Source: Mariprofundus sp.
GTDB taxonomy: Bacteria; Pseudomonadota; Zetaproteobacteria; Mariprofundales; Mariprofundaceae
Reading direction: 5' to 3'
Length of the DNA stretch: 64,000 nt
Assembly: GCA_021772775.1 (NCBI GenBank)
Contig: JAJFLH010000007.1
Coordinates: 1 to 64,000 of the forward strand
In this document: positions 13,964 to 49,440 of the stretch, piece by piece
Layout of the letters: the number at the start of each line of letters is the position of its first letter
Position numbering within the stretch: the first letter of the stretch is position 1
Made by a program: the position numbers and the translations under genes
Notes under the pieces: generated by a model
The model's input: only the letters and a program-made list of their open reading frames with translations
Told to the model about the DNA's origin: nothing
Databases searched by the model: none

Positions 13964-14185
13964 CGTTGTGACATTGGCATATGTTCTGTCGAAGCTTGTT
14001 TCGCAGATCTTTCTATGCGGTTCTGTTCGATCTACAAATCTGTGACTGCTCTTCCTGATGGGATGAAGCACATTCTAGGCATGCTTTATGCTTATGCTTC
14101 ATAATCAATAAATGCATGAGATGGCCCCAGTAGTATGCAGCTACGATGATTATATTGATTGAAGACGTATAAACAGGAATGCACT

Positions 14186-15940
14186 TTGATTGATCGTATT
14201 ATTATTTTCTTAAAAAAAGGTTCGGTCGCCAGGCAGATTGGTGTTGCCGTCTTTTTAATATTTTCAGTGATGATGCTGTTCAATGCATTTGTGGTTCAGT
14301 ACAACTCTCAAAATTCTATGCAGGATCAGATTAAGAAGCAGGTAATTCAGATCAATCAGGGTTACTTCGATAGTCTCAATACATTAATGCTCACCGGCGC
14401 CATGCATGAGCGCGAACTGCTGCGGTCAAAAATGCTTAGAAATTCTAATATTGTTGATGTGCGAGTCCTTCGCAGTGATCTGCTCGGTGAGCAATACGGC
14501 CAGGGAAAGAGTTCTGAAGTGGTTGCTGATGATATAGACAGGCAAGCACTGGAGGGGAAGGAGGTTATTCAGATCAATGATAGCAGTGATGAGCAACGTA
14601 TTCTGACTGTCGCGCTGCCTTATCGTGCAACAGCTGCGAGTCATGGCGTGAATTGCTTGCAATGCCATACTGGGCCCGACGCTCATGTTGTGGGCGCTGT
14701 GCGCATCGATTATTCGCTTCAACAAAGTGATCAGATTATTGCAGGTACGCTGTGGCAATCAATTGTGGTGAATTTCACTGTATTACTGATCGGTATTGCC
14801 CTATTGGCCTGGTATATGAACCGCACTCTGACCCATGCTATTCGCGAAGCTGATATCTTTGCAGAGGCTATTGCTGAACAGAACTTTGATGTCGAAGTGC
14901 CAGCTATTCGGTCAGATAATCTTGGCCGGTTGATGTATTCCATGATCAAAATGCGCGATGCATTAAAAGCACAGCTTATTACTGTACAGGCCAGTAACCA
15001 GATTGAGCTCAAAGAGATGGAAGACAAAATGGAAAGGCAGGCCAAGGAGAGTAATCTGGTTGTCGCCTTTGAATCTGGCATAGTCAGTATAGTCAGAGAT
15101 TTGAGTGTCATCGCTGCAGATGCGGGCAAGTCGGCTTCATCACTTTCTCATATTTCTACTCAGATCAATCAGAGTTCATCCTCAGCTTTGTCAGGCACGG
15201 ATCATGCCTTACTGCAAGTTGCCAACATCACAAAAGATACCCATGCAATCAACTGGGCATTCAAAGATATCAATGAACGTAGTCAGGCAGCGATTGATAT
15301 TTCAAAACGCGCTATGGATGATGCTATTGCCACATCCGAGCGTATGGAAACATTGCAAAAGGCATCCGATGGCATCAGCTCGGTCACTGCGACCATTACT
15401 GACATCGCAGAAAAAACAAACCTTCTGGCCTTGAATGCAAGCATTGAAGCAGCCCGTGCAGGTGACGTTGGTAGAGGTTTTGCTGTTGTTGCCAATGAAG
15501 TTAAATCGCTGTCGAACCAGACCAGAGAAGCGACCGAGGTGATCAGCAAACAAATAGAGGGTGTACAATCTGAAAGTCGGGATGCCATTGCTGCTATTGA
15601 AGGGATCAATCAGGTGATTATTCAGATGAATAAACATACCCTTGATGTGGCAGAAATCATGTCACAATACACCGATACGCTGAACATGCTTGAGACAAAT
15701 GCAGAAGCGACGGATCACGAGATGAAGTCTGTCTACGTTTCAGTTGAAGGTGCCAGCCAGTCGGCTGAAGAGGGTGAAAGTATTTCGGCAGCAGTGGCTA
15801 TGCATTGTGAAAAAATGCAGGATATATCACTTGAGCATTCGCAGTTGGTTGAACAGTTCCTGTCGATGTTACAAGGCCTTCGAAAAAATGCTGAAAATAC
15901 CAACGATGGGGAGTATGACGATGAAGATGAGTTATTCTAA
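14186..15940 (+). CDS. Methyl-accepting chemotaxis protein with periplasmic CxxCH (putative c-heme) sensor
   Basis: Membrane chemoreceptor of 584 residues. TM1 is near residues 17-38, followed by a periplasmic domain (about 40-185), TM2 near 192-212, HAMP, and a C-terminal signalling domain with the hallmark hairpin tip [20 protein letters not shown]. The periplasmic domain contains CLQCH (codons 14654-14668), a covalent c-type haem attachment motif, just before GAVRIDYSL. Chemoreceptors with c-haem PAS-like sensors are known in Geobacter, where they sense redox or small gases. TTG at 14186 is chosen because AGGA lies seven bases upstream; another TTG at 14159 adds nine codons with no SD. Followed by a lone receiver gene. 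Confidence 0.88.
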
Positions 15941-15994
15941 GCAGCTATCGTTATACACTCGAATCAGAGCACAATAATAAATATAAACTCAACA

Positions 15995-16390
15995 GTGGTG
16001 AATAGATTGAAAAAGATAATCATTATAGAGGACTCCCGTCCTACATTACTGACCTTGGAAATTGTAATCGCTAATCTAGGTTTTGTGGTTGAAGGTTTTG
16101 AAACTGCAGAGGCAGCTCTACAACATTTGCATAACAGTGCCCAACAACCTGATCTTATTCTCACAGATTTGCATCTGGATGCACTTGATTGTGAAAAAGG
16201 ACTCGATGGCATTGAATTGATTCAGGAAATCAAAAAGATAAACGGTATGAAGGATGTTCCGATACTCTTATTAACTTCTGAAACTTCAAAGGAAAAAAGA
16301 TTCCTGGCACGTGATATTGGTGCTCAGGGGTGGCTGGTGAAACCTATCACACGCGCAAAACTGAAAGATGTAATCGATCAGTTTATATAA
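15995..16390 (+). CDS. Single-domain response regulator (CheY-like)
   Basis: 131 residues, one receiver domain and no output domain. Acidic pair ED12-13, phospho-acceptor Asp58 in LILTDLH, switch Thr in LLLTSE, and Lys-Pro in WLVKP. It has a small insertion after the acceptor loop (DALDCEKGLDG). It lies 54 bases after the c-haem chemoreceptor gene on the same strand, so it could be a motor- or kinase-directed partner of that receptor. No cheA or cheW is nearby. The start codon is GTG with no clear SD, and a second GTG follows immediately. Confidence 0.85.
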   Translation: MVNRLKKIIIIEDSRPTLLTLEIVIANLGFVVEGFETAEAALQHLHNSAQQPDLILTDLHLDALDCEKGLDGIELIQEIKKINGMKDVPILLLTSETSKEKRFLARDIGAQGWLVKPITRAKLKDVIDQFI

Positions 16391-16436: not shown

Positions 16437-16889
16437 TCATTCACCATCCGGTACGGCGATCACGCTGAGAAAGAGTCCCAGCTCCCTGATAGCGTTGCTG
16501 AATTCAACATAATCAACTGGTTTGGTGATATAGATGTTGCAGCCCAGTTCATAGCAGCGCCGAACCTCTCTATCATCATCTGTGGTGGTCAGGATGATGA
16601 CAGGAATATGTTTGGTTCTGGGGTCGGATTTCAGCTTGTCCAACACCTGATAGCCATCAAGCACGGGCATATTTAGATCCAGCAGTAGCAGTACATCGTG
16701 ATCATGAGGGTCACCCTCAAAGGCATCGCGGCCAAGGATGAAATCCAACGCTACTTTACCATTTTCGCACCATTGAACCGGATTATTAATACCAGCTCTC
16801 TGTAAATTTTTTTGTGTGAGCTTGGCGTGCCCCTCTTCATCTTCGGCCAGAATGATAGTGACGGGTTTTGTTTTAATGTTTGATGCCAT
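16437..16889 (-). CDS. Rcp1-type single-domain response regulator
   Basis: 150-residue receiver. ED17-18 form the acidic pocket, Asp71 in LLLLDLNMP is the acceptor, with TTT and Lys-Pro (ITKPVDY) following. The long alpha2-beta3 loop (FILGRDAFEGDPHDHD) and RAGINNPVQW are typical of the Rcp1 group, which partners phytochrome-like or soluble-tail histidine kinases. Last gene of a three-gene minus-strand operon: binding protein, kinase, receiver. Only three bases separate it from the kinase gene, so it is the obvious phosphate acceptor of that kinase. Confidence 0.9.
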   Translation of the reverse strand: MASNIKTKPVTIILAEDEEGHAKLTQKNLQRAGINNPVQWCENGKVALDFILGRDAFEGDPHDHDVLLLLDLNMPVLDGYQVLDKLKSDPRTKHIPVIILTTTDDDREVRRCYELGCNIYITKPVDYVEFSNAIRELGLFLSVIAVPDGE

Positions 16890-16892
16890 GGT

Positions 16893-18902
16893 TTAAACCT
16901 CCGGTTTATTGGAAAAATTTGAATTTAGGGGAAGGAAAACCGAGAAGGTGGAGCCTACATTTTCCTCTGATTCAAATGTTATACTGCCATTCTGGGCGCG
17001 GGCCAAGGTCTGCACATAGGCCAGTCCCATGCCTTCACCCTGTACATCCTGATGTTTGCCACGCCTAAAAATCTGGAACACTTTATCATTCTCTTCTTCA
17101 CTGATGCCACGGCCATTGTCAGTGACATTGATCGTGATGCCATTGTCATCTGATTCAGCATTGATACTAATATTGCCGGCGCGATCCAAAGCCAGATATT
17201 TAATAGCATTGCCGATCAGGTTGTTCATGATCTGTTCGATGACGATGCGATCATTATCAATCACGGGAAGCGTGTTTAATTCGACCGTCGTGCCTGTTTG
17301 TTTGATCTGGTGGGTGAGGGTGGCAAGGATTTCATCACAGAGTGGTTTCAAGTCGATCGACTCAATATGTAGCTCTCGTCTGCCCAATCGCGACAGCGTA
17401 AGGATAGCTGTAAGCATATGATCCATCTTCGCCACCGATGTACTGATGAATGAAAACGATTCAGGAATATCCTCCTGAATAAGGCGATGCATGGTTTTAC
17501 GATCACGTTGTTCCAGTTTTTCTTCGATGCGCTCGGTGAGTTCAGAAATTTCTTTTAGTGTGTATTCCAGTTCGCCGGTAAACCCTTTCATGTTGACCAG
17601 TGGTGAGCGTAGATCATGTGAAACGATATAGGCAAAACTTTTAATCTCTTCGTTGGCAGCAGCAAGTGTGGCAGTTCGCTCACACACTTTTTGTTCGAGC
17701 ACTTCTCCAGCTTTGATTAGCGCCAGATTCTTTGTACGTATCTCCCGGTTATACTCTTCGAGATGGTCGGCCATGACATTAAATGCAGTGGCCAATTGGC
17801 CGATTTCATCGCCGCTGCGAAATGTGCTGCGGACAGAGATGTCGCCTTCTGCATAGCGCAGTGTGGAATCCGTCAATCGGGCAAGCGGAGCGGTGATGCT
17901 TCTTGCCAACAGGTAAGCGATGAAAACAGCGATAAGTAGAATGCCTGCAACAATAATCAGGGTAATGCTTTTCATCTGCTCAACAGGCTCGAGCAATTCC
18001 TCGGTGTCCATTTTGACTACGATACCCATCTGGAGCTCTGGTATATAACCCCAGGCGGCGGCAACATCAATATCGCGGTAATCTTTGTCGAATGCACTGC
18101 CGACATCTCCCTGTAGTGCATACTGAATAGGGCCAGCAAGACTTGACCCCATCGTAACCTCAAGATCAAGCTCAGCTGACGGCATGTGCCTGAGCGGCGC
18201 AAGGTATGCTTTATCCTGCTTTAGAATACCGGCCACAACCTCACCTGATTCTCCCAAGCCTGTAATGGAGGTGAGGGTATCATGTAGTTCTTCCCAGTTA
18301 ATTTGCACGGCTGTGACGCCCAATATTTTATTGTCGTGTATGACAGGTGTGGCGATGAACAGGGCTGCTTCACTGCTGGGCTCATAGTAGGCAACCGTAG
18401 AAATTTGGGGTTGCAGCATCTGCATGGCCTGGCGAAAGACTTTGGCCAGCTGGGTCTCTTTGTATGGGCCACTCAAGAGATTGGTTCTGGCATCGACTTC
18501 ATTGCCCATGCTGTGGATAATATTTCCGTTTGTTGAAATAATGAACAGGTCATGAAGATCGTAGTACTCGCCCTGCTGATCAATGGCATTATGGATTGGA
18601 CTGTTGCTTACTGTTTCAGAATATTCAGCCGGATTATGGTTTGAAAGGTCTTTGATCACTGCAGGCAGAGTGGAGAAACGCTCGTTATCTCGAATGCTTT
18701 TCTGAATACTTGTTCTGATATCATGAATTCGGTTGTTGCGTATATCGGCCATATGCTCAACAGCTTGATGAATCATACTGGATTCAAACTGCTTGAAGGT
18801 AAAATAAGAAATGGATATTGCAGAGAGAAATACAACGACAAATAGTGCTGCCACTACGCGGTAGCGAATAGGAGAGCTGCTGAATCGAATAAAACGTCGC
18901 AT
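16893..18902 (-). CDS. Membrane sensor histidine kinase with dCache-like periplasmic domain
   Basis: 669 residues. TM1 is at about 15-34, the periplasmic Cache-type sensor at 40-310, TM2 at 312-332, HAMP at 333-385, a coiled segment, HisKA with His429 in IVSHDLRSP, and a C-terminal HATPase with GNAIKYL and GRGISEEEN. The sensor has the pattern EYYDLHDLFIIS..GNIIHS, followed by LLSGPYKETQLAKVF, shared with three other proteins in this window. Eight bases downstream of the UrtA-like lipoprotein gene and three upstream of the Rcp1-type receiver. Probable input: a ligand presented by, or in parallel with, the binding protein. The ligand is unknown. Confidence 0.92.
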   Translation of the reverse strand: MRRFIRFSSSPIRYRVVAALFVVVFLSAISISYFTFKQFESSMIHQAVEHMADIRNNRIHDIRTSIQKSIRDNERFSTLPAVIKDLSNHNPAEYSETVSNSPIHNAIDQQGEYYDLHDLFIISTNGNIIHSMGNEVDARTNLLSGPYKETQLAKVFRQAMQMLQPQISTVAYYEPSSEAALFIATPVIHDNKILGVTAVQINWEELHDTLTSITGLGESGEVVAGILKQDKAYLAPLRHMPSAELDLEVTMGSSLAGPIQYALQGDVGSAFDKDYRDIDVAAAWGYIPELQMGIVVKMDTEELLEPVEQMKSITLIIVAGILLIAVFIAYLLARSITAPLARLTDSTLRYAEGDISVRSTFRSGDEIGQLATAFNVMADHLEEYNREIRTKNLALIKAGEVLEQKVCERTATLAAANEEIKSFAYIVSHDLRSPLVNMKGFTGELEYTLKEISELTERIEEKLEQRDRKTMHRLIQEDIPESFSFISTSVAKMDHMLTAILTLSRLGRRELHIESIDLKPLCDEILATLTHQIKQTGTTVELNTLPVIDNDRIVIEQIMNNLIGNAIKYLALDRAGNISINAESDDNGITINVTDNGRGISEEENDKVFQIFRRGKHQDVQGEGMGLAYVQTLARAQNGSITFESEENVGSTFSVFLPLNSNFSNKPEV

Positions 18903-18910
18903 GGCTAGGG

Positions 18911-20191
18911 TTACTCAGCTTGAGGTGCTGCCCAGTGCAGCCCCCAACGATCATATAAAACATCTGTAAGTTGTTTTGCTTCATCACTCAAAATCTTTAA
19001 TGGATAGGGATTCGGACGAAGCATTTTTTCGAATTTCCAGACGATATCAAATTGACCATCAGCAGTAACTTTTCCGATACGAGCGTGTTTCCATGTATGC
19101 TGGGAGTTCAGCCCAAATCCGATGATGCCTTCAGGGGCTGCGAAGCTTTGGCTTCTCAGGTTGAAAAGGATATTGCTGTTTTCAGTGCTTCCAACCAGTT
19201 CGGCGGCCTGGGCCCAGAGATGTACCCCGATATAAGCGGCCTCCATCGCATCACTAAGTACTCTATTTTGTCCGAATCTAGCTTTAAATGCTTTGACAAA
19301 TTTATGGTTCGCTTCGCTATCGATGCTCTGAAAATAGCTGGCCGCAGCATAGTGACCGGTCATTTTATCAGGATTCATTCTGGCCAGTTCATTTTCGCCA
19401 ATACTGAATGAGAGAATGGGCGTAGTTTTTGAGGTGAGACTGCTTTCAGAGAATGCTTTAAAAAAACTGATGTTACTGTCACCATTGATAGTGTTGATCA
19501 CGACATCAGGTTGAAGTCTGGTGATTTCAGCTATGGCGGTTGAAAAAATGTTACTGCCTAGTGGCTGATAATTCTCGCCGACGATTTGTATACCCTGCAG
19601 GGCTGCCTGCCTTTTGATCAGCCAGTTGGCGACTCTGGGGAAAATATAGTCGGAACCGACCAGATAAAGCCGCTTGCCCAGATGTTCAGAAGCCCAACTA
19701 ATGGCAGGGATAATCTGCTGGTTGGGCACCGCACCGGTATAGATGATATGCGGCGAGAGCTCCATGCCTTCATATTGCACAGGATAAAATAGCAGGCTTT
19801 TGTAATGTTCCACGACAGGCTTAACCATTTTCCGGCTGGCCGAGGTCCAGCAGCCAAATATCACAGCCACCTTATCTACAGTAATCAGACGTTTAGCCTG
19901 AATGGAAAAGATTTCCGGATCCGACTTTCCATCTGCTATTACTGGAATAAGTTTCCTTCCCAGCACGCCGCCTTTGGCATTAATCTCTTCTATAGCAAAG
20001 AGGGTAGCATCAATCACCGCTTTTTCACTGATGGCCATGGTACCTGTTTGTGAGTGTAAGATGCCAATATTGATGGGTTGATTGTCACTATTTTGGCAGC
20101 CAATCATGAATAGCGCCAAAGCCATCGAGATGAGTGGCAATATGCTACGCCTGCATAGCTGTTTGAACCTGAATTTCGGTATCTGGGGCAT
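18911..20191 (-). CDS. UrtA/AmiC-like periplasmic binding lipoprotein, probably sensory
   Basis: 426 residues. The N-terminus has a basic region, a hydrophobic stretch and the lipobox FMIGC with Cys32, so it is a predicted lipoprotein. The mature part is a type-I periplasmic binding fold close to urea/short-amide binding proteins: ILHSQTGTMAISEKAVIDAT, VAVIFGCWTSASRKMVKPVV, YPVQYEGMELSPHIIYTGA and TINGDSNISFF. A paralogue lies at 44227-45546. No permease or ATPase gene is adjacent; the next gene is a histidine kinase, so a ligand-sensing role is more likely than uptake. The urea/amide ligand is inferred from family resemblance only. Confidence 0.88.
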   Translation of the reverse strand: MPQIPKFRFKQLCRRSILPLISMALALFMIGCQNSDNQPINIGILHSQTGTMAISEKAVIDATLFAIEEINAKGGVLGRKLIPVIADGKSDPEIFSIQAKRLITVDKVAVIFGCWTSASRKMVKPVVEHYKSLLFYPVQYEGMELSPHIIYTGAVPNQQIIPAISWASEHLGKRLYLVGSDYIFPRVANWLIKRQAALQGIQIVGENYQPLGSNIFSTAIAEITRLQPDVVINTINGDSNISFFKAFSESSLTSKTTPILSFSIGENELARMNPDKMTGHYAAASYFQSIDSEANHKFVKAFKARFGQNRVLSDAMEAAYIGVHLWAQAAELVGSTENSNILFNLRSQSFAAPEGIIGFGLNSQHTWKHARIGKVTADGQFDIVWKFEKMLRPNPYPLKILSDEAKQLTDVLYDRWGLHWAAPQAE

Positions 20192-20311
20192 AAGAGCTTA
20201 TTCAGCATATCGAGTGCCAATCTGAAGTTTGGCTTAATTTATGCTCTAGCCAATAATAATATAACTTTCAGTGCATTTATTAACTTCTATTGCGGAGGGC
20301 CAAGAGAGATA

Positions 20312-22414
20312 ATGACAGACCAGGAATCAGTGATGCCAATCAGTGATCTGCGCATTCTCTATATTGAGGATGATGCAGGCTTGGCTCGCCTGTTGCAAAA
20401 ACAGCTACAGCGACAATACGGTTATCAGCTGGATATTGCTGTCGATGGTGAACAGGGTTTACACGATTTACAGCATCAAGCTTATGATATGGCTATCGTT
20501 GATTATAACCTGCCCGTTTTTAACGCCTTGCAACTGCTCTATATGCTTAAAGAGCGTGGCATTGATGCGCCGATCATTATTCTCACAGGTGCGGGCAATG
20601 AACAGATTGCAGCTGATGTGATGAAAGCAGGTGCTGTCGATTATCTGGTTAAGGATGCCGATGGCGGACATATCAAAAAAATTCACTCCACTGTGCAGCG
20701 GGTCTGGCAAGAGAGACAGAAACAGCTGCAGAAGAAGTTGGTGTTCGCAAAGCGTAAATTGGCTGAGAAGGTATTTGATGTGACCAAAGAGGGCATCATT
20801 GTGACCGATGCCAATCGGGTGATTGAAGCTGTAAACCCTGCATTTTCACTCATCACAGGTTATTCATATGAAGAGGCTTTTGGCAAAACACCGGGCATGT
20901 TGCAATCTGGCCATCACGATGCTCAGTTCTATCAAAAGATGTGGCAGTCGATTGATGAGCATGGCAGTTGGGAAGGTGAAATCTGGAATCGACGTAAATC
21001 CGGTGAGGAGTATCCCGAGTGGCTGGTTATCAATGCAGTGCATGATGAGGCTGGAGAACTTACGCAATACATCGGTGTATTTACCGATATCAGCAGGCGT
21101 AAGGAGGACGAGGAAAAAATATGGCATCAGGCTAATTTTGATGAGCTGACTGATTTGCCCAATCGCGCTCTACTGATTGACCGTGCCTCTGAAGCCTTAC
21201 GTCGGGCAAAGCGTGAAAGCACCTCTTTAGCTATTATCTTTATCGATCTTGATCGCTTTAAATATATCAATGATCACTATGGCCATGCAGCAGGAGATAG
21301 ATTACTCATTGAGATGGGTAAACGCATACGATCGGCCTTACGCCAGAGTGATACTGTCATTCGTCTTTCAGGCGATGAGTTTATTGTACTCATGCCGCTC
21401 ATTCACCACGCCGCCGATGCAGGGGGGGTGGCGGAGAAGATTATCTCCACCGTGTCAGCGCCATATATGATCAATGATAATAAAGTCTATGTGTCGGCCT
21501 CAGCCGGAGTTGCCGTTTTTCCAAGTGATGGTGATAGTGTGGATGTGCTGCTCAGTCATGCCGATATGGCCATGTATAACGCCAAGGATAGCGGCCGCAA
21601 TCAGCATCTTTTTTATAACCAGAAGATGAATGATGAAGCTGAAACAAAGAGAGTCATCGAGCGTGAACTACATACGGCAATCAATGAAAACCAGCTTGTG
21701 ATGTATTTCCAGCCGGTGACGAATTTGAGCACAAATAGAATATCCCATGCAGAGGCATTGATTCGCTGGAATCACCCAAGCAAAGGTCTGGTGATGCCGA
21801 ATGATTTTATTCCGATTGCTGAGGAGTCCGGGCTGATTATCCAGCTGGGTGAGTGGGTGATCGATGCGGTATGCAAGCAGTTGATGGAGTGGAAGGGTAA
21901 AGTCGATGAATCATTACGAATTTGTTTGAATGTTTCACCGACCCAGATGATGCATGCCAATCTGGACAGACAAATGCAGATGGCGATAACCCGTTTTGCA
22001 CCTCCTAGAGGCAGTATTATCATCGAGATTACCGAGAATGTGCTCATCGACGGGCCTGATAAGATCAAGATCAAACTCGATGAGATGAAAGCGATGGGGA
22101 TGAGTTTTCTAATCGACGATTTTGGCACCGGTTTCTCTTCGATGCGTTATTTGAAGAAGCTACCATTCGACGGATTGAAAATTGATCGCAGTTTTGTTGC
22201 TGATGTTGATAGTGATAATGAGAAAGCCGTACTGGTCAAAGCGATGATTGAAATGGCGCATAACCTGAATCTGAAAGTGGTTGCTGAAGGAGTTGAGAGG
22301 GAGGCAGAACTGGAGTTGTTACGCATCTATGGTTGTGATTATGTGCAAGGTTATCTGCTGGGCAGGCCTATGCCAGCAGATGAATTTTTAAATAAAATAC
22401 AAAAGAAAAGTTGA
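20312..22414 (+). CDS. REC-PAS-GGDEF-EAL cyclic-di-GMP turnover protein
   Basis: 700-residue cytoplasmic response regulator. Receiver 12-125 has Asp64 (AIVDYNLP) and Lys114. PAS spans about 155-265. The GGDEF domain (about 280-430) has SGDEF as active-site loop with an RQSD inhibitory site five residues before it. The EAL domain (about 445-695) keeps EALIRW, CLNVSP, EITENV, IDDFGTGFSS, LKIDRSFV and AEGVE, so the phosphodiesterase looks intact; the SGDEF cyclase is plausible too. Divergent from the binding-protein/kinase/receiver operon, with 120 bases between the starts, so that kinase is a candidate phosphodonor. Confidence 0.95.
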   Translation: MTDQESVMPISDLRILYIEDDAGLARLLQKQLQRQYGYQLDIAVDGEQGLHDLQHQAYDMAIVDYNLPVFNALQLLYMLKERGIDAPIIILTGAGNEQIAADVMKAGAVDYLVKDADGGHIKKIHSTVQRVWQERQKQLQKKLVFAKRKLAEKVFDVTKEGIIVTDANRVIEAVNPAFSLITGYSYEEAFGKTPGMLQSGHHDAQFYQKMWQSIDEHGSWEGEIWNRRKSGEEYPEWLVINAVHDEAGELTQYIGVFTDISRRKEDEEKIWHQANFDELTDLPNRALLIDRASEALRRAKRESTSLAIIFIDLDRFKYINDHYGHAAGDRLLIEMGKRIRSALRQSDTVIRLSGDEFIVLMPLIHHAADAGGVAEKIISTVSAPYMINDNKVYVSASAGVAVFPSDGDSVDVLLSHADMAMYNAKDSGRNQHLFYNQKMNDEAETKRVIERELHTAINENQLVMYFQPVTNLSTNRISHAEALIRWNHPSKGLVMPNDFIPIAEESGLIIQLGEWVIDAVCKQLMEWKGKVDESLRICLNVSPTQMMHANLDRQMQMAITRFAPPRGSIIIEITENVLIDGPDKIKIKLDEMKAMGMSFLIDDFGTGFSSMRYLKKLPFDGLKIDRSFVADVDSDNEKAVLVKAMIEMAHNLNLKVVAEGVEREAELELLRIYGCDYVQGYLLGRPMPADEFLNKIQKKS

Positions 22415-22676
22415 GGTCTGAAGTTTATCTGACTTTTTTGCTATAAGGTAAATCCGAAGAGATGAATGCGGTAAATATTATTTATAAACCTTACAGAATT
22501 CATGAGATCAGTCAGCTGATCCGCCACTGCCTTAATAACTGATGAAACAATTGTACCATAAAAATCATATGGTTAAATGGATGTTGGTTATTGGCTTTGA
22601 TCTTGCTTATTCCCTGATAATCCGACAATAGATTTTATACTGTATAGGAAAAGGCGCAATGGATCGAGGTGAAGTC

Positions 22677-25091
22677 ATGAAATTACGTACAAAAATGTTA
22701 ATAGCTACGATGTTACTATCCATTATACCACTGTTAGTGGGGGCTGGTTTGGTAGGGAAAATGGCGGCCAGTTCGGGCCATGAGGAAATTACGCATGAAG
22801 TGAAGGACAGGTTAGTATCCCTGCGTGAAAGTAAAAAACAGCAGGTTGAGCGCTATTTTCAGCTCATTCAAAAGCAGGTTATAAGATATTCCGGAGATTC
22901 AGTGGTGGTGGACGCCACGCAGGGATTTGAACGCTCATTTCGAACATTTCGCAAGGATAGTGGTCTGAGTTCGGCCAGTCGTGTTGCAGAGCAGCGGGAG
23001 CTATTGAAACCGACATATGATGGCTTTGATAAACGTTATCGTCAGGTGAATGGTGGTGTTGGTTCAGAATCGGAAACGATGTTAAATGGTTTGAGCCCTG
23101 AAGCGGTGGCATTGCAATATCAGTTTATTGAAAATAACTCGAATCCTGTTGGCTCAAAAGATGCTCTAAATGATATCTCCGTAGATTCTAAGTATGCTGA
23201 TGTACATGCCCGTTATCATCCGCAGATTCGTAAATACCTGAAAACATTTTCTTTTTATGATATTTTCTTGATTGACTCCAATTCAGGTCAGGTTGTTTAT
23301 TCGGTGTATAAAGAGCTGGATTTTGCGACATCGTTAAAGCAGGGGCCATTCGCTGACTCAGGCCTGGCAGAGGTCTACCGAAAAGCGATGAAATTAACGC
23401 ATCAGGATGGTGTGGTCATTACCGATTTTGCGCCCTATAAAGCATCATATGAAGCACAGGCTGGTTTTATTGCATCGCCGATTTTTAAGAATGGTGAACG
23501 CATTGGTATTCTGGTGTTTCAAATGCCAATTGATGCGATTAATGATGTGATGACCAGCAAGGCGAAGTGGAAAGATGTAGGGCTGGGGGAGTCGGGAGAA
23601 ACTTACTTGGTTGGTCGTGATAAACGTTTACGCAGCCAGAGCCGTTTCCTTATTGAAGATCAATCCGGTTATCTGAAAGCCCTGAAAGAGAGTGGTCTCG
23701 CAGCCAATGTGATTGAGCGCATTAAAGCAACCGGAAGTGGTATAGGTTTACAGCCCGTTGATACTCAAGGTGTGAGAGAAGCTTTGGCAGGACAAGAGGG
23801 GTTCAAGGTTTTCCCTGATTATCGAGGTGTGGCGGTGTTGTCGGCTTTTGCCCCAATTGAGCTTAAAGGCTTGGATTGGGTGCTTATGGCCGAACTGGAT
23901 GAGGAAGAAGCCTTTCATGGTGTGGAAGAGATGAATGATAATATTTTCACCTCTATTTTACTGGTTGTGCTCATCATTGCCGCTATTGCTATTGGGGTTG
24001 GGGCCTATGCTGCACGCTTGTTTACCGGTCCTGTTATGGATGCGGCTAAAGCTGCAGAACGCATCGCTACAGGTGATCTGGAGTCTCCCATCATCGCTGA
24101 ATCTAAAGATGAAATAGGTCAATTGGCGATTTCACTCAATGATATGCGTCTTGCTTTGGCAAAATCAGTTGAAGAACGGGAAAGGCTGGCAACAACTGAA
24201 CGGGAACAGGTTAAGTTGCAGCTTGAGTTACAGCGTCAGGAATCTGAGTTGGTAAAACATTTTGAGGGGAATATAGGTAGTTCTGTTGAATTGGTGAGTG
24301 GTACAGCAGAAGAGGTTAACGACTCGGCAACGGCTCTTGCTTCAACAGCAGAAGAGTTGACAGCACAATCCCAACTGACCGGAGAGAGTGTTGAGAGTGG
24401 TGCGGAAAGTGTGAATTCGACAGCCGCCGCATCGGAAGAGATGAGTGCTTCAATTTCATTGGTCACTGACCGGATTCATTCAGCAATGGATATTTCAAAT
24501 GAGGCTGTGCACCAGGCTAATGCAACCAATGATTCAATGTCGCATTTTAATGAGATGTCCAATCAGATTGGGTCTGTGGTTCAGGTGATCAGTGATATTG
24601 CAGAACAGACCAACCTGCTTGCGCTTAATGCCAGTATTGAAGCTGCTAGGGCAGGTGATGCGGGTAGAGGTTTTGCGGTCGTGGCGGGAGAAGTAAAAGA
24701 GTTAGCCAATCAAACAGCCAGAGCTACTGAGGAGATTTCATCGCAAGTATCTCAACTGCAGGGAGAGAGTGGTCGTGCAATTACGGCGATTAGCAAAATA
24801 TCTGAGGTGATTGGAAGGATGAACGAAATCAGCCAGAGTATTGATGAGGCGATGACACAACAGAATGAGGCGACACATGAAATTTCATCTGGTGCGCAGC
24901 AATCGACGGAGAGCATTTCGCAGATTCAACATGCTTTTGAGGATGTGATAGTGGCTTCAACGGATACAGCGCGCATGTCTTCGTCACTGCTGGAGACTTC
25001 AGATAAGCTTGCTCATGCAGCGGAAGAACAGAAACGTTTGGTTGAGGACTTCCTTTCAGAGATGAAAGAGATCAGATCGAGATCGACATGA
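22677..25091 (+). CDS. Methyl-accepting chemotaxis protein with large dCache sensor
   Basis: 804 residues. TM1 is near residues 6-28, a long periplasmic sensor reaches to about 415, TM2 ([18 protein letters not shown]) is near 425-445, then HAMP and a signalling domain whose tip reads [19 protein letters not shown]. The sensor contains [18 protein letters not shown] (about nt 23250), the same element as in the kinases at 16893, 36865 and 45543, with an N-terminal insertion relative to them. The ATG at 22677 is preceded by GAGGTG at five bases; an ATG six codons earlier (22659) is the alternative. Transcribed alone; no terminator is obvious. Confidence 0.93.
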
Positions 25092-36581: not shown

Positions 36582-36864
36582 AAGCTAAAGAGGCTGATTA
36601 TCGGAGATAAATAAAGAGTTTCTCAGCCAAATGTAAAGCGACTGTTATATAACTATCATCATGATGAACAAGCTGTTTTGAGAATACTGGTATCATACTT
36701 GCTTAAGAAAATACGCTAACCATTTGAACTTAGTCAAAGATGAGAGAGCGGCTGATGCAGAATATAGTTTCATCAATATTTATTATTTTCATAGGCCTTA
36801 TGGCCTTTATGTCACTGTGGCCAGAAAAGAGGCAATCAATGATAGAATCGGGTGTTTTACATTC

Positions 36865-39800
36865 ATGATGAGCTGGCATCAGCTAAGAAAGCTATTGAGG
36901 CGTTCAATTCTTACTGAATTGATGCTGATTATTACCATTGTTATTGTACCTCTGGCTTTCTTGTTTGGCTGGTATGCGGTGAAAAGCTTTATCAATGTAA
37001 TAGAAAATGATCACCTGACAGCGCTAAAAGTATTGAGTGAAGAGAAAACGAATACAATCGACTCATACATGAAGGGGCATATTCTGCATGTAGAGTCATT
37101 TAGCCAGATGCCAACTGTTCAACAAGCGATGATTTCAATGTCAGCTTTGTATTATAGTGATGGCGACAGTTCGGCAGTATTTCAGCAACAGAGTGCGCAA
37201 TATGATGGCTTCTTTAAGCGTTATCGAACGCAATGGAATTATTACGATATTTTTCTGATTGATCTGCAGGGAAATGTCATTTACAGCAGCAAACATGAAA
37301 ATAACTTATCAAGTAATGTGATGATAGGTGCTGATAATGAGACAGGTCTGGCACAGGCGGTTAAAAAAACTCTCCGGAGATCAGAGTCGAGCATTAGCAG
37401 CTTTGAGTTTTTTGCGCCTTCTCAAGAGGGGGCAGGTTTTGTTTCCGCCCCAATCTTGCATGAAGGGAGAATAGTGGGTGCACTGGCATTTCAATTCGGC
37501 GCATCGGAATTTTATAAGGTGGTTAATGATTATACCGGGCTGGGTAGATCAGGCGAAATTGTGATCGGACAAAAGGTTGAAGATCATGTGTTATTGATAG
37601 CGCCGCTACGACATGATCCTAAAGCAGCCTTTAATCGTAAGATCAAATTGGATAGTGCGATTGCGCTTCCTATTCGAGAAGCTTCATATGGTATGTCCGG
37701 TATGGGGACTACCATTGACTGGCGTGGTGTAGAAGCGCTGGCGGTTTGGAAGTATGTACCATCTATAAAATTGGCTATGGTGGTTAAAATTGATGCAGAA
37801 GAAGCTTTTGAGTCATGGTCTGATATTAAAACCAACTTAATTCTATGCTTTATCATAAGTCTGTTTTTCATCTATCTGTTACTTTATCTATTTGCAAAAC
37901 AGATTACCGAGCCGTTACATAAATTGACCGAGGCCAGTTCAGATCTGGATATGTTTGGTGAGGTATTAAATCTTGATTCACTCACTGTTATGGAAAATGA
38001 AGTGGGCACATTAGCACGTGGCTTTTCAACCATGGCAGAGCATATTCAGGAATCAGAAGAATCATTAAAAGCGGCTCTCATTAGCGCTGAACAGGCAGGG
38101 ATCGCGAAGAGTCAGTTTTTGGCTACGATGAGTCACGAAATCCGCACACCGCTAAATGGCGTACTGGGTTTAACTGAACTTGTTTTAGCATCTGAGTTGA
38201 CTGGCGAGCAGCGTGAACAGCTAGGTACGGTTAAATTAAGTGGTGAGACTCTACTCATCATCCTGAATGATATTCTCGATTTCTCCAAGATCGAAGCCGG
38301 CTTGATGGAAGTCAAACTGGTTGAATTTAATCCCAATGAAGTAATTGAGAACGTGGCTAAACTATTTGCCAGTAAAGTGAATCAGGATGAGGCGGTGTTG
38401 GAGTTGATTGCCCGAGGTATTCCACATTTGCCACACTTTTTGGTAGGTGATTCAGACCGTCTGCATCAGGTGTTGTCTAATTTACTATCTAATGCAGTGA
38501 AATTCACCAGCAGAGGCGAGATTATTATAGGGGCAGATATTATCAGTGAGAGTGATGCTGATGCGCTGGTCAGATTTCATGTGACCGATACTGGCAACGG
38601 TATTTCTGAAGCAGATCAAATTAAGATATTTGAGCAGTTTATGCAGGCTGATGGTACGGATACCCGTAAGCATGGAGGCACTGGACTTGGCCTGTCGATA
38701 TCAAAAACTCTTGTAGAGTTAATGGGTGGTGAAATAGGCGTAGAGAGTGAGCTGGGCAAAGGTTCAAGTTTCTTCTTTGAGATTCGCTTGAAAAAAAGTG
38801 GGGAGGTGAAAGATGGGCCTCATCATTACCGACCTCAACTCTCGCAGTGGCAGATACTTGTTGTCGATGACAATACGTTTAACCGTAATAAGATACATGG
38901 TGCTCTCAATGCCTGGGGTATGCACTGTAAAGCTCTCTCATCAGGGCCTGAAGCCCTGCAGGAGTTGCGTGAAAAAGCAGGAACACATGCTGGTTACCAT
39001 ATCATTACGATTGATCAGCAGATGGAAGGCATGGATGGCATGGTTCTGGCCCGGCATATCAAGAACACCCCTGCATTGGCTGAGCTTAAAGTGATTATGA
39101 CTACCTCATTGGATATGACTTTTAATGCGCAGCTGCGTGATGAATATGGTCTTGATGGTTTTATCCGTAAACCGGTTTATTTGAGCTCTCTGTTTGAAAC
39201 CATTCTATCTGTGATGGGAGAGAGAAAGCAGTACCGAGCACTGGATGTAGGGCATGAAGCGCCTGAGCGTAAAGAAAAGATTCTTTTGGCTGAAGATAAT
39301 GTTGTAAATCAGCAAGTTGCAATGGGACTGCTGGCGAATCAAGGCTTCAAAGGTGTTGATCTGGCTCAAAATGGTATTGAAGCAATGGATCTGTTCACAC
39401 AAACAGCCTATGACCTGATTCTCATGGATGTTCAGATGCCCGAACTTGACGGTATTTCAGCGGCACGTGGTATTCGGAAGTTAGAGGATATGCGATCTAC
39501 TGATGAGCATGTGACGATCATTGCTGTTACAGCCCATGCACTAGCAGAAGATAGGCAGCGTACGAAAGATGCAGGCATGGATGGCCATTTAACCAAGCCT
39601 TTGACGGGTACTGCTTTACAGGAGATGTTGGCGGAGTGGCTGCCAATGGATGAAGAGAATGAATATATTAATACAAGCACTCAGGTAGTTGTTGAAGAGG
39701 AGGCACTAGTTCAGAATGATAGTGTTATCGATGAGAGTATTTTGCGCCAAATGCGCACGGATATAGGCTGTGGCATTGGCATGATTATTGATGCCTATGT

Positions 39801-40065
39801 TGCTGAATTGCCAAGAGATGTAGAGGCGCTTGAGTCTGCTATTGCCAATGCAGATGCCGATGCACTGCGCAGCTGTGCCCATCGTTTAAAAGGGGCCAGT
39901 AATTCTGTTGCAGCATTAGGATTTGGGGAAATGTGCTTTCGTTTTGAAAGCATGGCGAAAGATGGGGAGTTAGAGGCTGCAGTGAATCAACTTCCAGAAC
40001 TTAAAGCGATGGCTGATGCTGTGCAGCTGGCTTTCAGTGCTAGCTGGGTTGATGAGGTACGCTGA
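36865..40065 (+). CDS. Hybrid sensor kinase: Cache-HAMP-HisKA-HATPase-REC-REC-HPt
   Basis: 1067 residues. TM1 is near 20-42, a periplasmic Cache sensor has NYYDIFLIDLQGNVIYSS, TM2 is near 325-345, then HAMP. HisKA has His424 (MSHEIRTPLNG) and HATPase has GGTGLGLSI. REC1 has Asp717 (TIDQQM; alignment around it slightly unusual), REC2 has Asp855 (LILMDVQMP), and an HPt has His1006 (HRLKGASNS). This is a full BarA/ArcB-style phosphorelay in one chain, so the output regulator is elsewhere. The longest ORF starts at a TTG (36724); ATG 36865 is preferred because the protein there begins just before TM1, like the paralogue at 45543, though its SD (GGGTG, ten bases away) is modest. Confidence 0.9.
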   Translation: MMSWHQLRKLLRRSILTELMLIITIVIVPLAFLFGWYAVKSFINVIENDHLTALKVLSEEKTNTIDSYMKGHILHVESFSQMPTVQQAMISMSALYYSDGDSSAVFQQQSAQYDGFFKRYRTQWNYYDIFLIDLQGNVIYSSKHENNLSSNVMIGADNETGLAQAVKKTLRRSESSISSFEFFAPSQEGAGFVSAPILHEGRIVGALAFQFGASEFYKVVNDYTGLGRSGEIVIGQKVEDHVLLIAPLRHDPKAAFNRKIKLDSAIALPIREASYGMSGMGTTIDWRGVEALAVWKYVPSIKLAMVVKIDAEEAFESWSDIKTNLILCFIISLFFIYLLLYLFAKQITEPLHKLTEASSDLDMFGEVLNLDSLTVMENEVGTLARGFSTMAEHIQESEESLKAALISAEQAGIAKSQFLATMSHEIRTPLNGVLGLTELVLASELTGEQREQLGTVKLSGETLLIILNDILDFSKIEAGLMEVKLVEFNPNEVIENVAKLFASKVNQDEAVLELIARGIPHLPHFLVGDSDRLHQVLSNLLSNAVKFTSRGEIIIGADIISESDADALVRFHVTDTGNGISEADQIKIFEQFMQADGTDTRKHGGTGLGLSISKTLVELMGGEIGVESELGKGSSFFFEIRLKKSGEVKDGPHHYRPQLSQWQILVVDDNTFNRNKIHGALNAWGMHCKALSSGPEALQELREKAGTHAGYHIITIDQQMEGMDGMVLARHIKNTPALAELKVIMTTSLDMTFNAQLRDEYGLDGFIRKPVYLSSLFETILSVMGERKQYRALDVGHEAPERKEKILLAEDNVVNQQVAMGLLANQGFKGVDLAQNGIEAMDLFTQTAYDLILMDVQMPELDGISAARGIRKLEDMRSTDEHVTIIAVTAHALAEDRQRTKDAGMDGHLTKPLTGTALQEMLAEWLPMDEENEYINTSTQVVVEEEALVQNDSVIDESILRQMRTDIGCGIGMIIDAYVAELPRDVEALESAIANADADALRSCAHRLKGASNSVAALGFGEMCFRFESMAKDGELEAAVNQLPELKAMADAVQLAFSASWVDEVR

Positions 40066-44226: not shown

Positions 44227-45546
44227 TTGCAACGACTTTTTGTATTGATTCCCGCGGCTTTTATTTTGCTTGTCGCTGTAATTACATTATGGCGGGAAGA
44301 TGATCTTCCCCCTATTAAAGTTGGTATTCTGCACTCTCTGACAGGTACGATGGCGATCAGTGAAAAGCCCGTGATGCAGGCAACATTGCTGGCTATTGAA
44401 CAGATTAATGCCAAAGGCGGCCTACTTGGTCGCAAAGTTAAAGCTATTGTGGTGGATGGTGAATCTGAAGAGCTACTCTTCGCACGTGAAGCTGAACGTT
44501 TGATTGTTGAAGAAAACGTCAGTGTTATCTTTGGTTGCTGGACATCGGCCAGTCGTAAAATGGTTAAACCGATGGTTGAAAAATATAATCATCTGCTTTT
44601 TTACCCGTTGCAATATGAAGGTCTGGAACAATCCGCCAACATTATCTACACCGGTGCGACCCCCAATCAGCAGATTATTCCTGCTGTCTCTTGGGCAGTG
44701 CAACAATTTGGGCCACGTATCTATCTGGTTGGTTCTGATTATGTCTTTCCACGCGTAGCTAACTGGCTTATTGGCAAGCAAGCGCTTGCGTTAAATGCTG
44801 CAGTAGTTGGAGAGCGCTATATCCCGTTAGAGAGCAGAGACGTAGAAAGCATTATCGAGGAGATTCAAAAGCTTAAACCTGATGTGGTGTTGAACACAAT
44901 CAATGGTGATTCTAATATAGCCTTTTTCCATCGTTTGAACGAGGCTGGTATTACCGCTGAAGAGAGGCCTGTATTATCCTTCAGTATTGGTGAATCGGAA
45001 CTAACTAAGATGCATGATGATGATGGTGATCCAACGGGACATTTTGCAGCCTGGAATTATTTCCAAAGTATCGATAATCAGCAGAACCGCAACTTTATTG
45101 AAGCTTATCAATCACGTTTTGGCAAAGCTCAGCCAGTCAGTGACCCGATGCAGGCCGCATGGGCTGGAGTGCATCTATGGGCGAGGGCTGTTCAAGCCTC
45201 ACAAACAGATGATAGTCAGGTGATTCGCCAAAGTATTTCGCATCAGAGTCTTATTGCGCCGGAAGGAATTATTGCGATTGATCAGAAAACCCAGCATGCC
45301 TGGAAGACAGTCCGTATTGGCCAGATTCGTTCCGATAGTCAATTTGATATTCTCTGGTCCTCTAATGCACCTGTACGACCTGATCCATATCCAGCTCTGG
45401 TGACAAAACAGCAAGCCGATGCCTTTCTTCGTCAGCTTTATGATGGCTGGAACGGGCATTGGGCACGACCCATAGCTATGGATAAGGCTGCGGGACAGAT
45501 GATGCCTCACACTGAAAAGCCAGCGCAAGCGGGGAATCAGCCATGA
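44227..45546 (+). CDS. UrtA/AmiC-like periplasmic binding protein coupled to a kinase
   Basis: 439 residues, paralogue of the protein at 18911-20191. Shared blocks: ILHSLTGTMAISEKPVMQAT, FGCWTSASRKMVKPMVEKY, LLFYPLQYEGLEQSANIIYT and TINGDSNIAFF. The N-terminus (LFVLIPAAFILLVAVITL) is a signal peptide or anchor without a lipobox, unlike copy 1. The TTG start is supported by AGGAGG five bases upstream. Its stop overlaps the next ATG (ATGA), so it is translated with the histidine kinase; no permease or ATPase gene is present. A sensory ligand receptor is the best reading; ligand (urea or amide-like) is inferred. Confidence 0.9.
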   Translation: MQRLFVLIPAAFILLVAVITLWREDDLPPIKVGILHSLTGTMAISEKPVMQATLLAIEQINAKGGLLGRKVKAIVVDGESEELLFAREAERLIVEENVSVIFGCWTSASRKMVKPMVEKYNHLLFYPLQYEGLEQSANIIYTGATPNQQIIPAVSWAVQQFGPRIYLVGSDYVFPRVANWLIGKQALALNAAVVGERYIPLESRDVESIIEEIQKLKPDVVLNTINGDSNIAFFHRLNEAGITAEERPVLSFSIGESELTKMHDDDGDPTGHFAAWNYFQSIDNQQNRNFIEAYQSRFGKAQPVSDPMQAAWAGVHLWARAVQASQTDDSQVIRQSISHQSLIAPEGIIAIDQKTQHAWKTVRIGQIRSDSQFDILWSSNAPVRPDPYPALVTKQQADAFLRQLYDGWNGHWARPIAMDKAAGQMMPHTEKPAQAGNQP

Positions 45547-48386: not shown

Positions 48387-49016
48387 ATGGCAAAGATAAC
48401 CATCGTATCAACACATCATTTAAACCAGATACTGGTTGATAACATTGCATCCTGTTTGTTTACAGAAACCCATTTCAGAGTGTTTGAAGGTAGTAATTTT
48501 TTTCATGATATCGATGCGTTAATAGAAAAAAAACGCGCTGATGTATTGATTGCTTTTGTTAAAGACAAGGGACATTTGCAAAAGATAAGAAATATCATTC
48601 ATACCTATCCGAAACTTAAAGTGGTGATTACAGGGGTGAATCATAGAGATGTTATTTTTGAATACATTCAGCTTGGTGTAAAAGGCCATTTTGGTGATGA
48701 TATTTCAGAGGAATTATTAAAGCGGGCCATCAGGGTATTGCATCAGGGAGAAGTGTGGTTTGATCGTGAGGTTTCAGCCAAAGTGCTAGCCATGTTTATC
48801 GGTCAAAGTGTTGCAGCAATTCATACTCCCAAAAGTGCACTGTTATCAGCCAGAGAGCGTGAAGTGATGGAGTGTGTATCGCGTGGTATGAAAAACCGAG
48901 CTATTTCAGAGGCACTGTTCATATCCGAAAGTACGGTGAAAACCCATTTGTATAAAGTTTATGAAAAACTGGGTGTGAAGGATCGCATGTCAGCAGTCCT
49001 GAAAATGAACGAATGA
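48387..49016 (+). CDS. LuxR/NarL-type regulator with degenerate receiver domain
   Basis: 209 residues. The C-terminal HTH (about 152-205) is canonical: LSAREREVMECVSRGMKNR, ISESTVKTHLYKVYEKL. The N-terminal domain has receiver-like length and secondary-structure pattern (LGVKGHFGDDISEELLKRAI, then GEVWFDREV), but the acidic pocket is missing (VSTHH in place of V-x-D-D-H) and the expected acceptor position reads IAFV. It therefore probably does not use normal Asp phosphorylation. It lies 63 bases after the hybrid kinase gene, so its target genes could be the output of that module. Confidence 0.88.
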   Translation: MAKITIVSTHHLNQILVDNIASCLFTETHFRVFEGSNFFHDIDALIEKKRADVLIAFVKDKGHLQKIRNIIHTYPKLKVVITGVNHRDVIFEYIQLGVKGHFGDDISEELLKRAIRVLHQGEVWFDREVSAKVLAMFIGQSVAAIHTPKSALLSAREREVMECVSRGMKNRAISEALFISESTVKTHLYKVYEKLGVKDRMSAVLKMNE

Positions 49017-49053: not shown

Positions 49054-49440
49054 ATGTTGAAAATATTTGTGCAAAACAGGCTAGCTGATCTTGCAGCGCA
49101 GTTAACAGGACTCGCTTATCAAGTGGAGTGTTGTTCTGAAACAATGGTTTTTAACGATTTAGAAGAACATCTGATTCATGGTGATATTGTTTTCTGGGAC
49201 CATATTCCGGAGTCAGGCTTCTATGGTTCCAAGGCCAACATCATTGTTGCCACTGCGAAAAGTAGTGCGACTGAAGAGCATGATGCTGCGAAAGCCGGAG
49301 CACTTGCTTATATCGCTTCCGACATATCTGATGAGATGCTGAAACATGTCATTGTGAGTGTCTCGAAAGGTGAACTTTGGATGACACGGGATACTATTGC
49401 CACGCTGTTTGATGAGTTCGTCAAATCAAAAGAGAGCTAG
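49054..49440 (+). CDS. Stand-alone atypical receiver-like protein
   Basis: 128 residues with no HTH. It resembles only the receiver half of the preceding LuxR-type protein, including a matching linker-like end (VSKGELWMTRDTIATLFDEF versus LHQGEVWFDREVSAKVLAMF). IVFWDHIPE places Asp49 where the phospho-acceptor belongs, and IIVATAK resembles the switch Thr strand, but the N-terminal acidic pair is absent (FVQNRL). It could modulate the kinase or the LuxR-type partner by competition or heterodimerisation; that is inference. It lies 37 bases after the regulator gene. I know no named family for it. Confidence 0.7.
   Translation: MLKIFVQNRLADLAAQLTGLAYQVECCSETMVFNDLEEHLIHGDIVFWDHIPESGFYGSKANIIVATAKSSATEEHDAAKAGALAYIASDISDEMLKHVIVSVSKGELWMTRDTIATLFDEFVKSKES

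Follow-up and report, generated by a model that had tools for sequence, protein, structure and literature searches.

What does a substrate-binding protein (SBP) of the urea-transporter family UrtA do when its gene is packed against that of a sensor kinase and no permease gene lies beside it? This question is raised by a locus in a stretch of 64,000 nucleotides, hereafter "the window", from a Mariprofundus sp. contig (JAJFLH010000007.1, positions 1 to 64,000; assembly GCA_021772775.1; Zetaproteobacteria). The genes of the binding protein (SBP1), a histidine kinase (HK1) and a stand-alone receiver (RR1) form one row, divergent from a gene for a REC-PAS-GGDEF-EAL enzyme of cyclic di-GMP (c-di-GMP) metabolism. 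A first-pass annotation, made from the letters alone, had placed these genes, the gaps of 3 bases (RR1-HK1) and 8 bases (HK1-SBP1) and the 120-base divergent spacer exactly to the base. Its domain assignments agree with Pfam: Response_reg for RR1; dCache_1, HAMP, HisKA and HATPase_c for HK1; Peripla_BP_5 for SBP1; and Response_reg, PAS, GGDEF and EAL for the enzyme. Note that the dCache_1 match of HK1, at 40.1 bits, falls just below the Pfam cut-off of 45.

We read the module as a sensor of urea, or of a small amide much like it, that works without transport; in it, SBP1 docks on the dCache domain of HK1 and signals via RR1 and a phosphodiesterase to c-di-GMP (probability about 0.6). SBP1, tethered by a lipid at the inner membrane, would close on its ligand in the periplasm, dock on the HK1 dCache and change autophosphorylation at His429. 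RR1 would then receive the phosphate from HK1, as probably would the receiver of the REC-PAS-GGDEF-EAL enzyme, either directly or through competition. With this enzyme acting mainly as a phosphodiesterase, the ligand level would set c-di-GMP and with it the choice between attached and motile states. A paralogous copy elsewhere in the window, SBP2-HK2 with a LuxR-type regulator, would have a transcriptional output. The identity of the ligand, the lipid anchor, the docking, the direction of kinase control, the phosphotransfer to the phosphodiesterase and the phenotype are the steps that we infer.

Binding protein, permease and gene neighbours

SBP1 matches Peripla_BP_5 with 496 bits, and its best NCBIfam match is UrtA (TIGR03407), at 467.1 bits against a cut-off of 492.75. 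UrtA-type binding proteins pair with a permease of the BPD_transp_2 type. Searches of the Mariprofundus genome (99.96% complete) gave no match to BPD_transp_2 (control genomes positive, 12 of 14) and none to UrtC (controls positive, 11 of 14), and BPD_transp_2 was likewise found in 0 of 74 genomes of the family, 36 of which are of high quality. Because no Liv/Urt-type permease was found in the genome or in any of the 74 family genomes, SBP1 cannot be a normal transport subunit, and an uptake role was rejected on this ground. The earlier remark that transporter genes are missing is therefore true locally and, for this permease type, genome-wide; a Urt permease elsewhere, named at the time as the finding that would overturn a sensing role, was looked for and is absent.

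That SBP1 might still serve uptake together with a permease of another type appears very improbable. Its score does lie near the UrtA cut-off, and elsewhere the genome encodes a UT urea-channel domain as a fusion with an M23 peptidase (contig C30; L189 5237-7447). The fusion gene appears to share an operon with those of a PqqD-like protein, an ATP-grasp protein, a pyridoxal-phosphate decarboxylase and a hybrid kinase, a setting that looks unrelated. On the other side stand the family-wide lack of the permease type used by UrtA-like proteins and the point that UT channels are not known to require a binding protein.

Within the family, SBP1 was matched in 27 of the 74 genomes, at 32 places. A signalling gene adjoins the SBP at 31 of these, the remaining one (G064:C90) being half a gene running off its contig. 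In 28 of the 31, BLAST shows this gene to encode a kinase whose Cache domain resembles those of the window. The exceptions are G066, where the SBP carries a partial dCache of its own and has a REC-HD protein and a dCache-free kinase as neighbours; G006, where the SBP is fused to PAS-HK-REC and has no signal peptide; and G045, which has the layout of G006 with one in-frame stop. Using the longest open reading frames (ORFs), SBP and receptor genes in relatives overlap or lie no more than 11 bases apart in 38 of 38 pairs. A C-terminal partial dCache was found on the SBPs of G055 and G066 (L050 2571-4358 and L061 8129-9910). G055 and G058 belong to the same genus as the window genome; L071 and L072 match L050 and L054 in every gene. 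The gene set recurs in relatives, more than chance would bring about, and the dedicated solute-sensing role first suggested from gene packing is now well supported by the missing permease together with the conserved SBP-kinase pairing.

In a sample of the phylum, 240 of 397 genomes match the SBP. Twenty places outside the family were inspected; the eight best-scoring are all linked to signalling genes and the twelve lower ones are all Urt operons. The 80 named loci are the top-scoring ones among at least 547; of these 80, 16 are linked to signalling genes, 58 have UrtB (Urt operons) and 6 were assigned to neither. Partners, by Pfam, are dCache kinases, dCache chemoreceptors (L077, L085, L087), dCache-PAS-GGDEF-EAL enzymes (Gallionella L079, and G099) and one dCache kinase with a terminal EAL domain (L078). 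The G134 contig breaks off within the Cache domain, of which only the start is visible.

A tree was built from 88 of 125 collected SBPs, leaving out G134 and G187, whose coordinates gave stops, 35 of 71 transport rows and the fragments from G060, G064 and G038. One clade of 40 SBPs (SH-aLRT 100) is signalling-linked throughout, has no transport member and spans Zetaproteobacteria, Planctomycetota and other groups. The tree comes from a quick search with no bootstrap, and the query lies inside the clade, so that distant members are under-sampled; one record labelled "Thaumarchaeota" may be mis-binned. Signalling use also occurs outside the clade, in cyanobacterial SBP-TM-HAMP-kinase fusions (L081, L082, L089; TM, transmembrane helix), in a Paenibacillus SBP-chemoreceptor fusion (L109) and in the cytosolic pair G006/G045. 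The cyanobacterial fusions (L081 7962-10430, L082 7950-10511, L089 7959-10868) have no evident signal peptide and keep all eight urea residues described below; they are possible intracellular urea sensors.

Pocket and candidate ligand

According to the available part of PMC10392092, the urea-binding residues of UrtA are Trp120, Ser122, Tyr141, Gln144, Glu146, Tyr190, Asn246 and Ser274, and four UrtA homologues were sampled, all of which bind urea. In an alignment, SBP1 has the same residues at 8 of 8 positions (W115, S117, Y136, Q139, E141, Y182, N236 and S263). SBP2, which is 54% identical to SBP1 and with it makes up the whole UrtA-like complement of the genome, also keeps 8 of 8. Across the 40-member clade (the pocket table omits G134 and G187), all 40 members keep Ser122 and Glu146, 39 keep Trp120, Tyr141 and Tyr190, 37 keep Ser274, 36 Gln144 and 35 Asn246. 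The urea/amide-like ligand first proposed for SBP1 gains support from these residues, and urea itself is the likely best guess. The MIG-Cys motif makes a lipid anchor on SBP1 probable.

The ligand could instead be another amide, a guanidine-like compound or a small amino acid derivative, which we regard as possible but doubtful. Four SBPs of the clade have a pocket with Gln replaced by Ala and Asn by Val, three with chemoreceptor partners (L077, L085, L087) and one with a kinase partner (G205; L172); these probably bind another ligand, and the clade is therefore able to change ligand. The Mariprofundus genome also lacks both urease and urea carboxylase. Urea is favoured over such compounds by the complete residue set of SBP1 and SBP2, by the uniform urea binding of the sampled UrtA homologues, by the position of a related Magnetovibrio module beside urt genes, and by comparison with AmiC, which in the alignment differs from the UrtA urea residues at three or more positions. 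Acetamide is the ligand of AmiC.

Urea breakdown was sought as a motive for sensing, and this candidate was dropped. Urease alpha was found above the cut-off in 0 of 74 family genomes (one match, in G072, lies below it), and the Mariprofundus genome has no urease; a full-length urea carboxylase was not found there either, nor was an FmdA/AmdA amidase. Urea carboxylase exceeds the cut-off in one family genome of the 74, G046, where it is full-length and no SBP is present. With no urea catabolism, urea would serve as a cue and not as food.

A separate observation concerns Magnetovibrio (L075 7911-17224), in which the sensor SBP and dCache kinase adjoin a response regulator and a UrtA-UrtB-UrtC operon; it offers a good test system for urea sensing.

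The dCache sensor, its partners and the output

Two predicted membrane helices flank the sensor region of HK1, with the dCache at residues 36-312, and His429 and the N and G boxes are intact. A model of the sensor region alone has a dCache fold with a mean pLDDT (predicted local distance difference test) of 87.8, and superimposes on DctB (3by9_A) over 227 residues with a VIA Z of 19.2 and a root-mean-square deviation (rmsd) of 3.0. A fold search with the whole of HK1 was dominated by the kinase domain, which is close to that of the bacteriophytochrome RpBphP2 (8f71_A, TM 0.86 by target length). PDB entry 5ere ("extracellular ligand binding receptor") was considered as a solved SBP-dCache chain and is kept only as a lead, since no sequence search tied its N-terminal part to the SBP family; its residues 344-593 align to the HK1 dCache over 219 residues (Z 17.6, rmsd 3.6).

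The HK1 dCache is probably the dock for SBP1, because the PDC domains of LuxQ act through LuxP and because most SBP partners have the dCache domain in common and differ in their outputs. The first-pass annotation had instead seen an "unusual double input"; on such a reading SBP1 would report one ligand and the HK1 dCache would independently bind a second small molecule. Given the docking precedent and a dCache that accompanies the SBP whichever of several unrelated outputs follows, no double input has to be assumed, and we consider it unlikely, although a second ligand for this domain could still exist. Speaking for it, and so against simple docking, the fold neighbours of the HK1 dCache (Tlp3, PctA, DctB) are domains that bind ligands themselves, and AsrK binds AI-2 (autoinducer-2) by its own dCache_1 and controls a phosphodiesterase response regulator, as described in the available part of PMC11796354. 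Across five relatives, the sensor half of HK1 is more variable than the SBP (31-53% versus 52-65% identity), which, like the LuxQ precedent for docking on a tandem PDC, tells against a second ligand; neither point is decisive.

A second SBP-kinase pair, SBP2-HK2 (44227-48323), was absent from the earlier annotation. It lies 24 kb from the SBP1 module, and its two ORFs share a 4-base overlap. A further kinase, HK3, has a Cache domain that falls inside the SBP-linked Cache clade, near that of HK2, with weak support for the nearest forks; it may therefore use SBP2 or SBP1 in trans. Its receivers and Hpt-like tail were read by eye. Over 34 pairs, SBP and Cache distances are correlated (Mantel r 0.789; best of 2000 permutations, 0.302).

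The label "Rcp1-type" given to RR1 at first reading is borne out by matches to RcpB, Rcp1 and RcpA over nearly the full length. Its phospho-acceptor Asp was read from the motif LLLLDLNMP, whose first residue is 67. The divergent enzyme keeps the EAL, DDFGTG and QGYLLGRP motifs; its GGDEF motif is SGDEF, as in all five REC-PAS-GGDEF-EAL relatives that were read, and so departs from an intact GG(D/E)EF. Asp64 is the putative phospho-acceptor of its receiver. With intact EAL motifs and SGDEF in place of GGDEF, this enzyme is a probable phosphodiesterase, which could retain some cyclase activity. Modules of the RR1 type number eight (window, G048, G047, G058, G059, G055, G159 and a Planctomycetota metagenome-assembled genome, or MAG), and a REC-PAS protein adjoins each of them: REC-PAS-GGDEF-EAL in four, REC-PAS alone in one (G058) and a hybrid kinase of a REC-PAS-HK-REC type in three (G059, G159, Planctomycetota MAG). 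This links the module with a second receiver and, at four of the eight loci, with c-di-GMP. Control of c-di-GMP by the window module is plausible from this conserved neighbourhood and from the SBP-paired dCache-PAS-GGDEF-EAL relatives.

RR1 might itself be the real output, acting for instance on a motor or another protein, with the GGDEF-EAL neighbour answering to other kinases. RR1 is well conserved (65-86% identical across five relatives) and the neighbour varies (G058, G059, G159, Planctomycetota MAG), which speaks for such an arrangement; the presence of a REC-PAS protein at all eight loci argues for a functional tie. We give this alternative some weight and still doubt it.

Features of the window that bear on the SBP-linked signalling module
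Feature	Positions	Strand	Basis
RR1, stand-alone Rcp1-type receiver, phospho-acceptor Asp71	16437-16889	(-)	Pfam Response_reg; RcpB/Rcp1/RcpA matches; motif
HK1, TM-dCache-TM-HAMP-HisKA-HATPase_c kinase, His429	16893-18902	(-)	Pfam, membrane helices, motifs, models, fold comparison
SBP1, UrtA-family binding protein, probable lipoprotein (MIG-Cys), 426 aa	18911-20191	(-)	Peripla_BP_5, TIGR03407, pocket residues
Divergent spacer between SBP1 and the GGDEF-EAL gene, 120 bases	20192-20311	no strand	
REC-PAS-GGDEF(SGDEF)-EAL enzyme, EAL motifs intact	20312-22414	(+)	Pfam, motifs
dCache chemoreceptor 3' of the GGDEF-EAL gene; neighbour, module membership unproven	22659-25091	(+)	Pfam; separate Cache branch
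HK3, dCache hybrid kinase without an SBP gene of its own, possible third receptor	36724-40065	(+)	Cache tree
SBP2, second UrtA-family binding protein, N-terminal hydrophobic anchor without Cys	44227-45546	(+)	Peripla_BP_5, 506 bits
HK2, dCache-HAMP-PAS-HisKA-HATPase-REC hybrid kinase	45543-48323	(+)	Pfam
GerE/LuxR-type regulator 3' of HK2, candidate output	48387-49016	(+)	Pfam GerE

Other genes border these features. On the far side of RR1 (14159-16390) lie a chemoreceptor-like protein with a periplasmic CxxCH haem-type motif, seen by eye, and then another stand-alone receiver. After the LuxR-type regulator, an ORF of 128 aa (49054-49440) has no Pfam match and looks receiver-like by eye. The Cache domain of the chemoreceptor 3' of the GGDEF-EAL gene pairs with that of a 945-aa protein on contig C22 (L068 6675-9512), not with those of the SBP-linked kinases.

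Comparison with known systems and meaning

In LuxP-LuxQ of Vibrio and HptA-HptS of Staphylococcus, too, a kinase with a tandem-PDC or dCache sensor is accompanied by a binding protein dedicated to it. HptA is the binding protein of its pair, and LuxP belongs to another binding-protein family, with another ligand, than the UrtA type. LuxQ and HptS are counted among the double-PDC kinases in the available part of PMC8534201, according to which AI-2 acts via LuxP, without binding the PDCs of LuxQ. Features of the LuxPQ kind are present in the window, namely the coupling of SBP and kinase genes and, in the model, the tandem-PDC/dCache sensor fold. Unlike in LuxPQ and HptAS, the SBP of the window is UrtA-derived, and the receiver is of the Rcp1 type with a c-di-GMP enzyme beside it. 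SBP1 has its family and its urea-contacting residues in common with the UrtA of UrtABCDE; it differs in its score under the model cut-off, its lack of a permease partner, its probable membrane anchor and its signalling neighbours.

AmiC-AmiR, the amidase regulator of Pseudomonas aeruginosa, employs a UrtA-family protein for sensing and not for transport (as PDB titles indicate), with several pocket positions that differ; AmiC works in the cytoplasm, on an antiterminator. In NspS-MbaA, the polyamine-sensing system of Vibrio cholerae, a binding protein of another SBP family steers a GGDEF-EAL protein. There the GGDEF-EAL protein is a docking receptor, whereas in the window it is a cytoplasmic response regulator. 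The phytochrome kinases Cph1 and BphP, which have Rcp1-type receivers, are brought to mind by the HK1 catalytic domain, close to that of RpBphP2, and by the Rcp matches of RR1; their input is a light-sensing bilin module, that of HK1 a periplasmic SBP with dCache. SBP-activated cyclases and phosphodiesterases are mentioned in the available part of PMC9602780. In the PMC literature searched, no listed paper was found to describe a UrtA-type protein that acts together with a kinase or a chemoreceptor, which is not proof of absence.

Several further findings weigh against a urea sensor that docks on dCache and controls c-di-GMP. LuxQ is not among the 50 matches listed in either fold comparison of the HK1 dCache, though it may still be a fold neighbour. 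The matched branching of SBPs and Cache domains is what plain co-inheritance would give. The chemoreceptor partners in G153 and G156 have a 4HB domain in place of dCache and weaken a strict rule of "dCache only". Of six RR1-type loci known in the family, two have a divergent REC-PAS gene that lacks GGDEF-EAL. An SBP present in only 27 of the 74 family genomes is not essential there. Lacking urease, urea carboxylase and FmdA/AmdA, the organism has no evident motive for sensing urea, and the UT-domain protein means that only ABC-type uptake, not every urea transporter, is excluded.

The transport-free sensor that we favour would bear on a small set of precedents, as activation by a binding protein has been characterised for only about ten sensor kinases, and further SBP families are considered likely to act in this way (PMC9602780, available part). 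The UrtA-derived clade, with 40 sampled members all linked to signalling, would add an SBP family with a directly testable ligand. Docking of an SBP on dCache could then be compared between receptors with three types of output, and structural work would find material in the naturally fused SBP-kinase proteins. For the SBPs of this clade, "urea ABC transporter substrate-binding protein" is a wrong functional label. More broadly, and at somewhat less than even odds in our judgement, a branch of the UrtA family may have given up transport to become a plug-in co-receptor for urea or a urea-like compound with dCache as its natural partner. In several phyla this pair would have been coupled to histidine kinases, to chemoreceptors and to enzymes of c-di-GMP metabolism; in Zetaproteobacteria that have neither permease nor urease, urea would then be purely an information cue that sets c-di-GMP.

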